Shown here: in pieces, positions 2,945 to 7,426 of the stretch
Position numbering within the stretch: the first letter of the stretch is position 1
Layout: each line of letters begins with the position of its first letter
DNA from: a virus
Length of the DNA: 20,456 nucleotides
IMG/VR virus record: IMGVR_UViG_3300025138_000494
Coordinates: 1-20,456 of that record
Direction: 5' to 3' (one strand)
Notes under the pieces: model-generated
Database searches by the model: none
The model's input: only the letters and a program-made list of their open reading frames with translations
What the model was told of the DNA's origin: nothing
Made by a program: the position numbers and the translations under genes

Positions 2945-3042
2945 TTGTCTTGGCTTCCTAAATTATTTTTTCTACGCCAAGTATTTTTAAGATGTAGTTT
3001 ACTTTTATTAGATTTAGAAGCTCTACGCTCTGCTCTATTCAT
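2941..3042 (-). CDS. very small basic protein, MNRAERRA type
   Basis: A 33-residue frame starting at the ATG that overlaps the previous TAA (TAATG at 3040-3044) and ending in the TGA that overlaps the next ATG. It begins MNRAERRASKSNK and continues with mostly Lys, Arg and Asn (TWRRKNN). It is the paralogue of the frame at 2861-2944. The paired N-termini, the exact coupling on both sides and the lack of any other frame here make chance unlikely. Function unknown. Confidence 0.6.
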   Translation of the reverse strand: MNRAERRASKSNKSKLHLKNTWRRKNNLGSQDK

Positions 3043-3638
3043 TAGAACGGTGACAAGTCTTCACCAGCATTGTTTGGTGCTGGTTTGACTTCTCCATCTA
3101 AGTTCCATTCTGCAGGTACATCTGAGTTATCTACCCACCATGACTTACGCCATTTACCACTGTGTCCACCACAGGTAACAGGGTCATTAGTACTACATAC
3201 AAAGTCTGGACTTTTGTCTGACTTCTTATTGTTTCTATTGTCATATACCATTTGTTGACAGAAAGGACACTTAAGGTCATCTCTGTATTTATTTTGTTGT
3301 TCCATTTTACTAACTATGCCTCCCAACATATCTCCAGCAGGCTGCACTTTATCAGTTGGTTCTTGTACTTCTAAACCTACAGCGTTTAACTTTTCTTCTA
3401 TTGACATTTTATCAAAAGAATCTTGAGTTACTACTGTTGGCATATCTACTAGCTTTTCTATGTAAGCAAAATACAAATCAAGTTGGTCATCTGTCCATCT
3501 TGTTTTATCTGTATCAAACTTCTTTAACTGTGCGTATTGATTTGCAGAACCTAAAATTTTATGTAATGTTTCTTGTGATTCTACGTTCGTACAAATACCT
3601 TGCACTGTTTCAGCTATAAATTGTACATCCTGACTCAT
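3042..3638 (-). CDS. zinc-ribbon protein with SSB-like C-terminal tip, partner of the annealing protein
   Basis: A 198-residue protein. Residues 1-120 are mostly helical and acidic. Residues 124-156 form a zinc ribbon: CPFC (124-127) and then C148 and C156, followed by a basic aromatic patch (KWRKSWW, 162-168). It ends EDLSPF; an acidic tail finishing in Pro-Phe is the signature of single-strand binding proteins, whose tip docks many repair enzymes. The gene overlaps the Rad52-like gene by 4 nt (ATGA), so the two are co-translated. I infer a DNA-recombination partner, possibly a single-strand binding or loading factor. I do not see a classical OB fold, so it is not called SSB outright. Confidence 0.6.
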   Translation of the reverse strand: MSQDVQFIAETVQGICTNVESQETLHKILGSANQYAQLKKFDTDKTRWTDDQLDLYFAYIEKLVDMPTVVTQDSFDKMSIEEKLNAVGLEVQEPTDKVQPAGDMLGGIVSKMEQQNKYRDDLKCPFCQQMVYDNRNNKKSDKSPDFVCSTNDPVTCGGHSGKWRKSWWVDNSDVPAEWNLDGEVKPAPNNAGEDLSPF

Positions 3639-4438: not shown

Positions 4439-5500
4439 CTATACTTTATCCAGTTTTACAAGGTATTCAGCAGTTACACCATGTCCTGGTTTACAGAATA
4501 ATAGCCATTGACATGGTCTACCCATGCTTGCTAGCTGCTCCATAGCATAACTATTGTAGCTTTCTGTACTACCATTTACCCATAAACGTACATCATTTAC
4601 GTACATTGTTGTAGGTGTATGGAAGTGTCCAGCTATTGCATAGTCAAAGTCTGGCATTAAATCTCTTGATGCCAATGCTTTCCAACCTAATAGTTTCTTT
4701 CCGAAACCATACCAAGGAAAACCGCTATGTCCTCGTACATTATCTCCGTGCCATACAAAGAATCTACAGTCTTTACCAAGGTCTGCTATACCAAACCAAT
4801 GGTCTTCTGTTGTACTGTCTGGTACATGAAAAGAAATTCTTTTATCTTTATCATATATCATTGACATTATCTTTCCTAGCATACGGTCACTGTTGCTGTC
4901 TGGGTGATAATCTTTTCTGGCTCTACCGCCAAGGCTTCCGTGATTACCTATTACCCAAGTAACTTCTACTTCTTTAAAGTTAGCTAACAGTACATCAAAG
5001 AACTGTGTCAATATTCTAGGGCCATCTATTGTTACCTGACTATAAAGACTTGCGTCTATCAAGTGTGATTGTCCTGGGAATATAAGCTCTCCTTCTACAA
5101 TGTCACCTGCAACTAGCACTGCACACTTATTTACGGGGTGTGCATTTCTTTGTAGATTTGCTAGTTCCACTATTTTATGAGCATATGCAACAACTCTTTT
5201 CTCTGCTATTGCTGTGTCATAATCTGGTGTTGTTTTAGCTAACTGTATATCTGATAGTATTGCTACTGCAATTTCTTCGTTCTTGTTAGCTTTACTTAAT
5301 GTAGGTTTAGGTACATTAGGTTTAGCCCATGTAGATACATTCATTCGTACAGCATCATACATAGCTTCAATTAAATCAGCTTTTTTATTTTTAGCTCTGT
5401 CTAATTGTTTAAGTAACTTAAGATTATCTGCTTTCAGTTCTTGAATCTTAGATGATTCAGCTTCGGCAATTAATTTATCTACTTCTTTATTTTTACTCAT
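4439..5500 (-). CDS. calcineurin-like metallophosphoesterase
   Basis: A 353-residue protein. Residues 8-50 are likely a coiled coil. The catalytic domain follows with the metal-binding motifs in order: SDIQ (83-86), AGDIVEGE (131-138), VIGNHG (183-188), WHGDN (250-254) and AGHFH (290-294). The family hydrolyses phosphate esters or nucleic-acid ends using two metals. The first motif normally has Asp-x-His; here it is Asp-x-Gln, so one metal ligand may be altered. Phage members are often found beside DNA-processing genes, and here it sits between a small HTH protein (ATGA overlap) and the annealing protein, which fits a role in DNA ends or regulation. Substrate unknown. Confidence 0.85.
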   Translation of the reverse strand: MSKNKEVDKLIAEAESSKIQELKADNLKLLKQLDRAKNKKADLIEAMYDAVRMNVSTWAKPNVPKPTLSKANKNEEIAVAILSDIQLAKTTPDYDTAIAEKRVVAYAHKIVELANLQRNAHPVNKCAVLVAGDIVEGELIFPGQSHLIDASLYSQVTIDGPRILTQFFDVLLANFKEVEVTWVIGNHGSLGGRARKDYHPDSNSDRMLGKIMSMIYDKDKRISFHVPDSTTEDHWFGIADLGKDCRFFVWHGDNVRGHSGFPWYGFGKKLLGWKALASRDLMPDFDYAIAGHFHTPTTMYVNDVRLWVNGSTESYNSYAMEQLASMGRPCQWLLFCKPGHGVTAEYLVKLDKV

Positions 5501-5736
5501 GCGCTTGTCACTTTCATAAAATGATTACGTATAGCTGATTCTGATATTTTCACACCAAATTCTTCACGCAACAATCTATGTACAACATATGGTTTTATGT
5601 TATGTCCAGATTCTAAACGTTCTATACATCCTTGCCAAAATGGCATTGCTTCATCTGTAATTCTGTCAAAGACAGAGTTATTCTTACCTTGTTCTGCTTC
5701 TTGCAGCAGTGCATTTATATCTTTCATACTTGTCAT
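5497..5736 (-). CDS. small helix-turn-helix-like protein upstream of the phosphoesterase
   Basis: A 79-residue protein. The C-terminal half (YVVHRLLREEFGVKISESAIRNHFMKV) reads as a helix-turn-helix: a first helix ending at EEF, a turn at GVKIS and a recognition helix ESAIRNHF. The N-terminus is acidic and helical. The ATG at 5736 lacks a good ribosome-binding site, unlike most leftward genes; the gene follows a 280-nt structured intergenic region that may control it. It is coupled to the phosphoesterase by ATGA. Small phage proteins of this kind are common before phosphoesterases, but the partner relation is inferred. Confidence 0.65.
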   Translation of the reverse strand: MTSMKDINALLQEAEQGKNNSVFDRITDEAMPFWQGCIERLESGHNIKPYVVHRLLREEFGVKISESAIRNHFMKVTSA

Positions 5737-6016
5737 TATATGTTCATTTATTAAAAATACAAGGATTTAATCTATTTATGCAGGATAGGCTAAACGGAAA
5801 TACGAGTGTCCACTAGGACACGAAGTATTGAGGTAAAGCCTGAGAGCATAAATAATTAGAGTAGTGTTCACTATAGGTCACTGTTGACATGATGAATAAA
5901 ATACCTTGTTGCAAGTTCTCTTTGCACTCTATTCTACTCTAATTATATACTGTAATGTTTAAGCAAAGGAAAGGAACCTTGCCACGCTTTGCAGCGTTAC
6001 ATTACATACTACTCTA
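5737..6016. other. 280-nt gene-free region with three consecutive structured elements
   Basis: No protein frame of useful length is seen on either strand. Element 1 (5773-5854): TATTTATGC/GCATAAATA outer stem, AGGCT/AGCCT, AATAC/GTATT, and a GTGTCC-acta-GGACAC hairpin. Element 2 (5854-5944): AATTAGAGTAG/CTACTCTAATT enclosing GTCA-ctgt-TGAC and TGCAA/TTGCA hairpins. Element 3 (5951-6006): TGTAATGT/ACATTACA enclosing GCAAAG/CTTTGC. On the minus strand these would be the 3' end of the VWA-gene message and the 5' leader of the HTH/phosphoesterase genes. Confidence 0.6.
5942..5947 (-). promoter_or_regulatory. possible -10 box on the minus strand
   Basis: Minus-strand TATAAT inside ATATAATTAG, a 10-mer that also occurs on the plus strand at the proposed late promoter (11564-11569). 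No convincing -35 box is present at 16-18 bp. If used, it would start a message whose leader carries elements 2 and 1 before the HTH gene at 5736. Confidence 0.3.
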
Positions 6017-7426
6017 TCACATGTTCAATTTAAGTCCATGTTCCTTTACTTCTTCTATATTTTTAAGATTTATAATGTTATATTTCTTAATAGACTTACT
6101 TACATCAGACATTAGATTAATACCAGATATATCACCTGTAGCACCAAACACATGCATGTCTGATACCCAGATTCTTTTAGCTGATTGTGTACCTAGCCAT
6201 TCTAAAGCTGGGCCATCTACAACATTGCCATAACCAGAATGTCTATTTAAGTAATCATCTGCTACTCGTTTACCATTCTTAGCAATAATACGTAATGTAC
6301 CTGTAGTACCACGTCCGTTATACATAGCAATAGTAACTGCAGGTAACAGTTGCATAATTTCTAAAATATCTTCACCACAAAATTGCATTGAACCTGAAGC
6401 ATCAATAAGTATTGTGCCACCAAGTGTTGTTATTTTCTGTTTGAATATCTTTCTATCTATACAATATCTATTAATATATTTTGGATTATAACCAAAGTCT
6501 GCAGGTCTATAGTTTCTGCCACCTTTAATTCGTCCTTGTAAATTAATAGTTAATGGGGGTTTTTCTATAGTCATAGCACCCCACATACCTATACCAGTAG
6601 TACTTCTATATAACATTTTTGCTATATCTTCTTTAGTACGTTGTTCTAAAGAACCACCACCTAACTCATTAGATTCTTCACCTCCACCTTCTTCCATACC
6701 AGGTGCGGTATGTTTTGGTGTAGGTTTATATACTTCTTCAGGCTCAGGTTTATCTCTGAACATATCAAGTAACAAACTTAATGGTTCTGCATATTTTTGT
6801 ACTTTACGATAACTAATAGTTCTACCATAACTATGACTAGTAATGCTATTAAAGTATTGTTGTATAATACTTTGTGCATATCTTATTTGTTCTTTACGAT
6901 AATCAGTGACAGTAATGTCATCTTGAATCATATGAAAACAGTCTCTCATAACTAAGTACTCGTCATTTACCATGGATGCATTGTATTTATTTCCTTCATC
7001 AACTACATTCCATTTACTAGCTAGACCCATAAGTATTATTTCTGCAATACCTGATTCATAAACTAGTTTCATAGTTTCTTGTTTTATTTTATCTAAACAT
7101 TTTGTTGGCTCAGATAAAGACAAGTTGTTTTCATGAAGTAAATGATTAATTCTTACTTCTTCTAGTACTTCTACTGCTTCTGCACGTACACCTGGCTTTA
7201 ACTTACCCATAGTCTTTGGACTCCACTTGGCATGACCAAGCTCATGTCTACGTATCATACGACTATGATTAATACCACATTCCGAACACTCTCTATCAAG
7301 TGGAACTGTCATTTGTCTGTTGAGATTATCTGTAGAACCTGCAGGACTGTTGTTAACAGTACCTACAACTTCCCAGTCTTCACCAGTAACAATTTCTGGA
7401 TATGGATAAGCTTTGCTATGAAGCAT
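6017..7426 (-). CDS. VWA-domain protein with HExxH metallopeptidase-like N-terminal domain (MoxR partner)
   Basis: A 469-residue protein. The N-terminal region has a CSEC pair (C47, C50) and a zinc-peptidase-type RRHELGHAKW (H61, E62, H65), followed by the acidic helix AEAVEVLEEVRINHLL (83-98), which could supply the third ligand. A low-complexity acidic linker (about 226-262, PEPEEVY...GMEEGGGEE) leads to a C-terminal von Willebrand A domain with the MIDAS motif DASGS (342-346) and a later VSDMHV (421-426). This order matches predicted metallopeptidase plus VWA proteins (DUF2201/VMAP-like). It overlaps the AAA+ gene by 11 nt, the usual pairing of MoxR ATPases with VWA proteins. Such pairs remodel or load metals into client complexes; the phage client is unknown. 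Confidence 0.8.
   Translation of the reverse strand: MLHSKAYPYPEIVTGEDWEVVGTVNNSPAGSTDNLNRQMTVPLDRECSECGINHSRMIRRHELGHAKWSPKTMGKLKPGVRAEAVEVLEEVRINHLLHENNLSLSEPTKCLDKIKQETMKLVYESGIAEIILMGLASKWNVVDEGNKYNASMVNDEYLVMRDCFHMIQDDITVTDYRKEQIRYAQSIIQQYFNSITSHSYGRTISYRKVQKYAEPLSLLLDMFRDKPEPEEVYKPTPKHTAPGMEEGGGEESNELGGGSLEQRTKEDIAKMLYRSTTGIGMWGAMTIEKPPLTINLQGRIKGGRNYRPADFGYNPKYINRYCIDRKIFKQKITTLGGTILIDASGSMQFCGEDILEIMQLLPAVTIAMYNGRGTTGTLRIIAKNGKRVADDYLNRHSGYGNVVDGPALEWLGTQSAKRIWVSDMHVFGATGDISGINLMSDVSKSIKKYNIINLKNIEEVKEHGLKLNM

Follow-up and report, generated by a model that had tools for sequence, protein, structure and literature searches.

Genes and structured elements at the locus

The window analysed here is a virus record of 20,456 bp, the left half of which is a block of minus-strand genes. 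Within this block, a gene-free gap of 280 nt (5737-6016) lies between a gene encoding a VWA-like protein and a small gene labelled HTH in an earlier note on this DNA, followed by a calcineurin-like phosphoesterase gene (Table 1). The HTH-labelled protein has no match in Pfam or PHROG, and ARAGORN detected no tRNA or tmRNA in the window. A 40-nt direct repeat (2906-2945 and 3004-3043; 83% identical, 98 nt apart) is located near gene ends.

Compared with shuffled sequences, the gap folds better on both strands, with z-scores of -3.3 on the plus and -3.7 on the minus strand. The earlier note had described three structured elements in this space, all of which were found at the claimed places, and a structured non-coding region is borne out by both the folding and the covariation in relatives. 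The loop drawn in element 1, with GA opposite GAA between AATAC/GTATT and GTGTCC/GGACAC, is confirmed on the plus strand, as are the bases common to elements 1 and 2 (5849-5854). The suggestion that these two elements compete is unsupported, because the shared bases do not include the conserved P1 stem of element 2 (5934-5942 with 5856-5864) and the functional strands of the two elements are likely opposite. The proposal of a plus-strand RNA antisense to the operon stands in part: element 1 looks better as a plus-strand molecule, while elements 2 and 3 are minus-strand and operon-sense. Neither a lack of covariation nor variability in relatives, both named in the note as evidence against it, is seen for elements 2 and 3; element 1 varies in sequence and orientation, its shape being kept in close lineages.

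Table 1 Features of the gap and its neighbouring genes, in operon order
Feature	Position	Strand	Basis
VWA-like protein with HELGH motif (upstream gene)	6017-7426	minus	PHROG 33218, function unknown
Element 3, branched family-specific 5' domain	5952-6005	minus	stem 5999-6005/5952-5958 enclosing hairpins 5984-5997 and 5963-5982
Element 2, core three-way-junction RNA	5855-5942	minus	covariance model R1 match, 69.3 bits (not independent: the window core and its relatives are among the training rows), E 3.7e-14 (rough, as all such E-values here; short calibration)
Element 2, inverted repeat I9 enclosing the conserved core	5849-5864/5934-5949		inverted-repeat detection
P1 5' strand, TTAGAGTAG	5934-5942	minus	family covariation
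J1/2, AAUAGAG, near-invariant unpaired segment	5927-5933	minus	alignment
P2 hairpin, 6 bp, conserved GAGAR loop at 5916-5920	5910-5926	minus	covariation
J2/3 (AC) and P3 5' strand (AAGGU)	5903-5909	minus	covariation, alignment
P3 3' strand (ACCU) and J3/1 AUAGUGAACA, near-invariant UGAACA	5865-5878	minus	covariation, alignment
P1 3' strand (P1'), CUACUCUAA	5856-5864	minus	family covariation
Element 1, rod hairpin with stacked purine internal loops AA/AA, GGA/GAG, GA/GAA	5774-5857	plus	covariance model R2 match 5764-5858, plus
Small 79-aa protein, "HTH" in the earlier note (downstream gene)	5497-5736	minus	ORF list
Calcineurin-like phosphoesterase / exonuclease-like gene	4439-5500	minus	PF00149, PHROG 284; query for relatives

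The three-way junction and its 5' domain in VWA-HTH relatives

Read along the minus strand, element 2 displays the features that define the RNA class described below, in the order P1, AAUAGAG, a 6-bp P2 hairpin with a GAGAR loop, AC, P3, UGAACA and P1'. The innermost P1 pair, G5934-C5864, is near-invariant (47 of 49 family cores), and P2 is paired in 94.9% of cells, with double changes at all six of its pairs. Folding a single core sequence alone gives a wrong structure, and the fold becomes visible only from the alignment. A T7-type phage promoter string (TTCACTATAGG / CACTATAGG) on the plus strand at 5867-5877 was rejected as a promoter: there is one exact copy, with no excess over shuffles at two mismatches, and the large plus-strand genes start only at 11.6 kb. 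The string is there because this is the conserved J3/1 of the minus-strand RNA.

Relatives were gathered from virus contigs by protein searches, yielding 47 loci with the VWA protein and 80 with the phosphoesterase. All 73 distinct relatives with a VWA-HTH gap keep both the gap, ranging from 186 to 795 nt, and the RNA core. Covariation, a check proposed in the earlier note, is found in an alignment of 39 RNAs, where 21 of 24 predicted pairs show compensatory changes. In the family-specific 5' domain, compensatory pairs occur in both hairpins, and hairpin 5963-5982 carries a conserved UCCUUUCC loop. The stem enclosing this domain, missed by RNAalifold, has 6.46 bp with its own partner strand and 4.34 bp when partners are swapped. 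Most relatives also have a weaker outer stem that encloses the entire RNA (6.18 vs 5.04 after swapping). The core lies 42-650 nt from the HTH start in this family, not 20. In three relatives (L079, L089 and L092; e.g., L079:4616-4722), the spacer holds a near-repeated string, GGACGAAGCGAGGAAC, twice around a hairpin, which may be a third variant of the spacer element.

Spread and strand of the core class

The core belongs to an RNA class, overlooked in the earlier note, that is spread over unrelated phages with a common fold, one strand, an intercistronic placement and a clustered spacing to the next start codon. Pattern and covariance-model searches located it in dozens of unrelated virus contigs, where it is intergenic and sense to the genes. 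A degenerate pattern detected it in a genome lacking all three marker genes (L173), with a G+C-rich closing stem followed by U8; a looser pattern gave at least 119 stretches, many in unrelated phages, and a variant pattern 71 stretches that partly overlap with the looser set. Covariance model R1 matches at 90 places in 84 loci. Pattern matches deep inside long ORFs (L189, L258) were treated as false. Many of the contigs are fragments, and their ORFs were called mechanically. Throughout the class, P1 ends in a near-invariant G-C pair and is followed by AAUAGAG (ACUAGAG in some members), the 6-bp hairpin with its GAGAR loop, AC, a P3 hairpin of variable size, a few free bases, UGAACA or UUAACA, and P1'. 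The patterns impose part of this invariance and bias the conservation counts; nevertheless, the VWA family, whose members were collected through protein searches only, shows the same invariance, as do, more loosely, tandem partners that the pattern fails to match.

Among 49 diverse cores, changes on both sides occur in 17 of 18 pairs, and all four Watson-Crick forms are found at the outer P1 pairs. Pairing amounts to 88.7% of cells, compared with 56% after shuffling and 31-47% when partners are slid; the covariation score reaches 0.895, compared with 0.25. Read on the operon (minus) strand, 65 cells are G-U and 14 are A-C, which identifies the operon strand as the RNA.

An annotated genome, the uncultured Ayaqvirus AP013544.1 (Autographiviridae), was reached via its RNA polymerase and carries the core, whereas Pelagibacter phage HTVC109P, Roseobacter phage CRP-125 and Streptomyces phage Dagobah do not; BLAST of the core against annotated phages returned chance matches only. 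Bacterial genomes were searched with the covariance model (369 Gammaproteobacteria) and the pattern (399 Pseudomonadota), and only the seed MAG was positive, as it was when a stricter pattern was run on all genome contigs, which returned that single MAG contig. Since this match adjoins the same VWA, HTH and phosphoesterase genes, the core is a virus element on present evidence.

Genomic setting and link to the next gene

Most genomes have one core locus. Two cores in tandem, separated by 9-24 nt (in most cases 9-14), are present in L185, L197, L215/L256/L278, L242, L252, L262 and L266, and one copy of a pair is often degenerate at otherwise invariant bases. In four genomes (G028, G030, G035 and G041), core copies lie at distant sites. 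The genes downstream include those for T7-type RNA polymerase, DNA polymerase, terminase, ParB-methyltransferase, RecT, an excisionase-like HTH protein and PD-(D/E)XK, while exonuclease VIII, integrase, helicase, replication initiator and antirestriction proteins are encoded upstream.

Of the 61 non-redundant cores whose flanks were long enough, 35 have a co-oriented ORF of at least 70 aa beginning no more than 40 nt further on, compared with 5 of 61 in the opposite-strand (mirror-image) control. The start lies 15-21 nt past the core in 9 of 18 unrelated downstream protein families, which under an even distribution across 60 nt has p about 7e-5, a value that is approximate as start codons were chosen by rule. 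In AP013544.1, the model match ends 11 nt 5' of the RNA polymerase start codon. A Shine-Dalgarno sequence is missing after many core copies, yet this is not specific evidence because these phage genomes use few anyway, and for the same reason a ribosome-recruiting element replacing the Shine-Dalgarno sequence is not specifically supported. One core copy (L288:6998-7146) directly precedes a phage tRNA-Arg (tct) gene, and a second copy lies 2.7 kb upstream of it. Weaker matches of 47 bits fall inside a 321-aa ORF (L335:1331-1408 and L336:1457-1534), and both of these genomes have another copy.

Element 1, a lineage-specific rod hairpin

Between the core and the HTH gene lies element 1, which is a separate, lineage-specific element. 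On the plus strand, its purine loops GGA/GAG and GA/GAA show conservation, and this strand folds better than the minus strand at this element in L002, L004, L009, L010, L050, L053 and L054; antisense copies are also present in the L020/L021/L029/L032 group. The opposite (sense) orientation is found in L003, L006, L011, L012, L014, L015, L048 and L073. Wherever a lineage has the motif, the strand carrying it folds better than the complement, and according to the phosphoesterase tree the orientation has changed at least two times. The pairs covary, with 94.8% paired against 25-46% with slid partners, and at one pair 11 of 15 sequences have U-G wobbles on the motif strand, which are A-C mismatches on the other. 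From these sequence features, the functional strand in this window is likely the plus strand, as had been suspected. In other relatives, element 1 is absent or replaced, the shortest gaps being too short for it, and a search of unrelated phages did not turn it up.

Proposed role of the core

We regard the core as a member of an uncatalogued phage RNA class and, with modest confidence, as probably a cis-acting 5'-UTR element of the next cistron, a reading drawn from sequence comparison. The three-way junction of 50-70 nt, with its fixed-length 6-bp GAGAR-loop hairpin and near-invariant junction strands AAUAGAG and UGAACA, would be transcribed within the operon mRNA and form part of the 5' untranslated region of the following cistron; in many members, P1' ends ~10 nt ahead of the start codon. 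Its compact tertiary fold may then act in cis on downstream expression, being recognised by a ligand or protein or altering ribosome access. In this phage, the core would be embedded in a larger family-specific RNA with the added 5' domain, and the second, rod-shaped element would be inserted between core and HTH gene. Many carrier phages lack the VWA, HTH or phosphoesterase genes, which speaks for a class of this kind; the tandem pairs and the distant copies within one genome fit a cis role, and the placement beside start codons would also be compatible with a riboswitch. Counting against a cis role, the core-to-HTH distance in the window family (42-650 nt) exceeds 20 nt, the downstream genes share no single pathway, and the tRNA-adjacent and in-ORF copies also suit processing or transcriptional roles. 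Two other ideas were dropped: a Y RNA of Ro60, prompted by the VWA neighbour, as the RNA occurs without a VWA gene, and a type III antitoxin, as there is no constant toxin neighbour.

The main rival reading is that the polycistronic message is cut between cistrons at the core, either by a new class of self-cleaving ribozyme or as the target of a host or phage endonuclease. This is somewhat unlikely on sequence grounds, yet a small three-way junction with near-invariant junction nucleotides, lying between cistrons with changing neighbours, would suit it, as would the tandem copies and the copy directly 5' of the tRNA-Arg gene. Phage T7 has an RNase III site just upstream of its RNA polymerase gene, and the core lies just upstream of T7-type RNA polymerase genes. 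However, simple cleavage does not predict the start-codon spacing, and no Rfam ribozyme is matched. The same spacing links the element to the point where the next cistron begins and therefore speaks for a role in cis rather than for a free small RNA, which makes it improbable that the core is a trans-acting RNA for host takeover or anti-defence, freed or terminated through its own P1 and U run. Such an RNA would account for the run of 6-9 U at or directly after P1' in several unrelated phages (L036, L037, L173, L234, L216 and L274), which resembles an intrinsic terminator, and for the usual single locus per genome; it sits poorly with intercistronic, co-oriented cores tightly spaced to the next start codon and with the distant copies in several genomes, and no shared target is visible. 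The plus-strand RNA proposed in the earlier note, running antisense across all of 5773-6006, is highly improbable: element 1 of this lineage does point to the plus strand, but elements 2 and 3 contradict it, the G-U excess of the core is on the minus strand, and the core is sense to genes in other phages. Very little probability likewise attaches to a DNA-level element, such as a single-stranded DNA hairpin, an origin or a recombination site; element 1 does occur in both orientations at the same site, but the core keeps its G-U asymmetry and a fixed orientation to genes, and several genomes have more than one copy.

Beyond the cis-acting role preferred here, a bolder reading is conceivable, though we hold it tentatively from the sequences. 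The core may represent a new catalytic or ligand-sensing RNA class in unrelated tailed phages of many environments, timing how replication, transcription and packaging genes are expressed during infection, with an invertible rod RNA produced off the opposite strand. Few structured RNA classes are known from phage genomes, and if self-cleavage or translation control proves true, a ribozyme, riboswitch or regulatory-RNA class would be added, one missed so far because almost all members found here sit in uncultivated viruses. A compact RNA with near-invariant bases that recurs across unrelated phages just before RNA polymerase, DNA polymerase and terminase genes is a direct experimental target.

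Comparison with known RNA families

The core class is absent from the public RNA family library. An Rfam search, suggested in the earlier note, gave no match in Rfam 15 (4227 families) at gathering thresholds for the window or for 18 core-bearing loci, and permissive scans returned chance-level matches only; the models of the glutamine riboswitch glnA (RF01739) and of the known self-cleaving ribozyme classes had no match at either setting. No description of the core RNA was found in the open-access literature, and an earlier one may exist elsewhere.

Among known RNAs, the glutamine riboswitch (glnA RNA) occurs in marine phages (PMC9004378). Like the core, it is a small junction RNA, found in phages of streamlined marine bacteria and thought to control the adjacent gene (PMC9004378). 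The core differs in its conserved strands (AAUAGAG, GAGAR loop, AC and UGAACA) and shows no association with glutamine genes. Small self-cleaving ribozymes such as hammerhead, twister, pistol and hatchet, some of which are found in phages, are of similar size and likewise have junctions lined with invariant bases, yet the consensus and topology of the core differ from theirs. The lambda-type boxB/nut RNA has a short stem with a GNRA-like five-base loop and lies in phage operons. The core resembles it in these respects at the level of the hairpin, which here forms one of the arms of a conserved three-way junction. Finally, the manA and wcaG motifs of cyanophages are candidate structured RNAs known mostly from marine metagenome DNA and phages (PMC2864571). 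They constitute separate Rfam families without a match here and are tied to sugar genes, whereas the core changes its neighbours.
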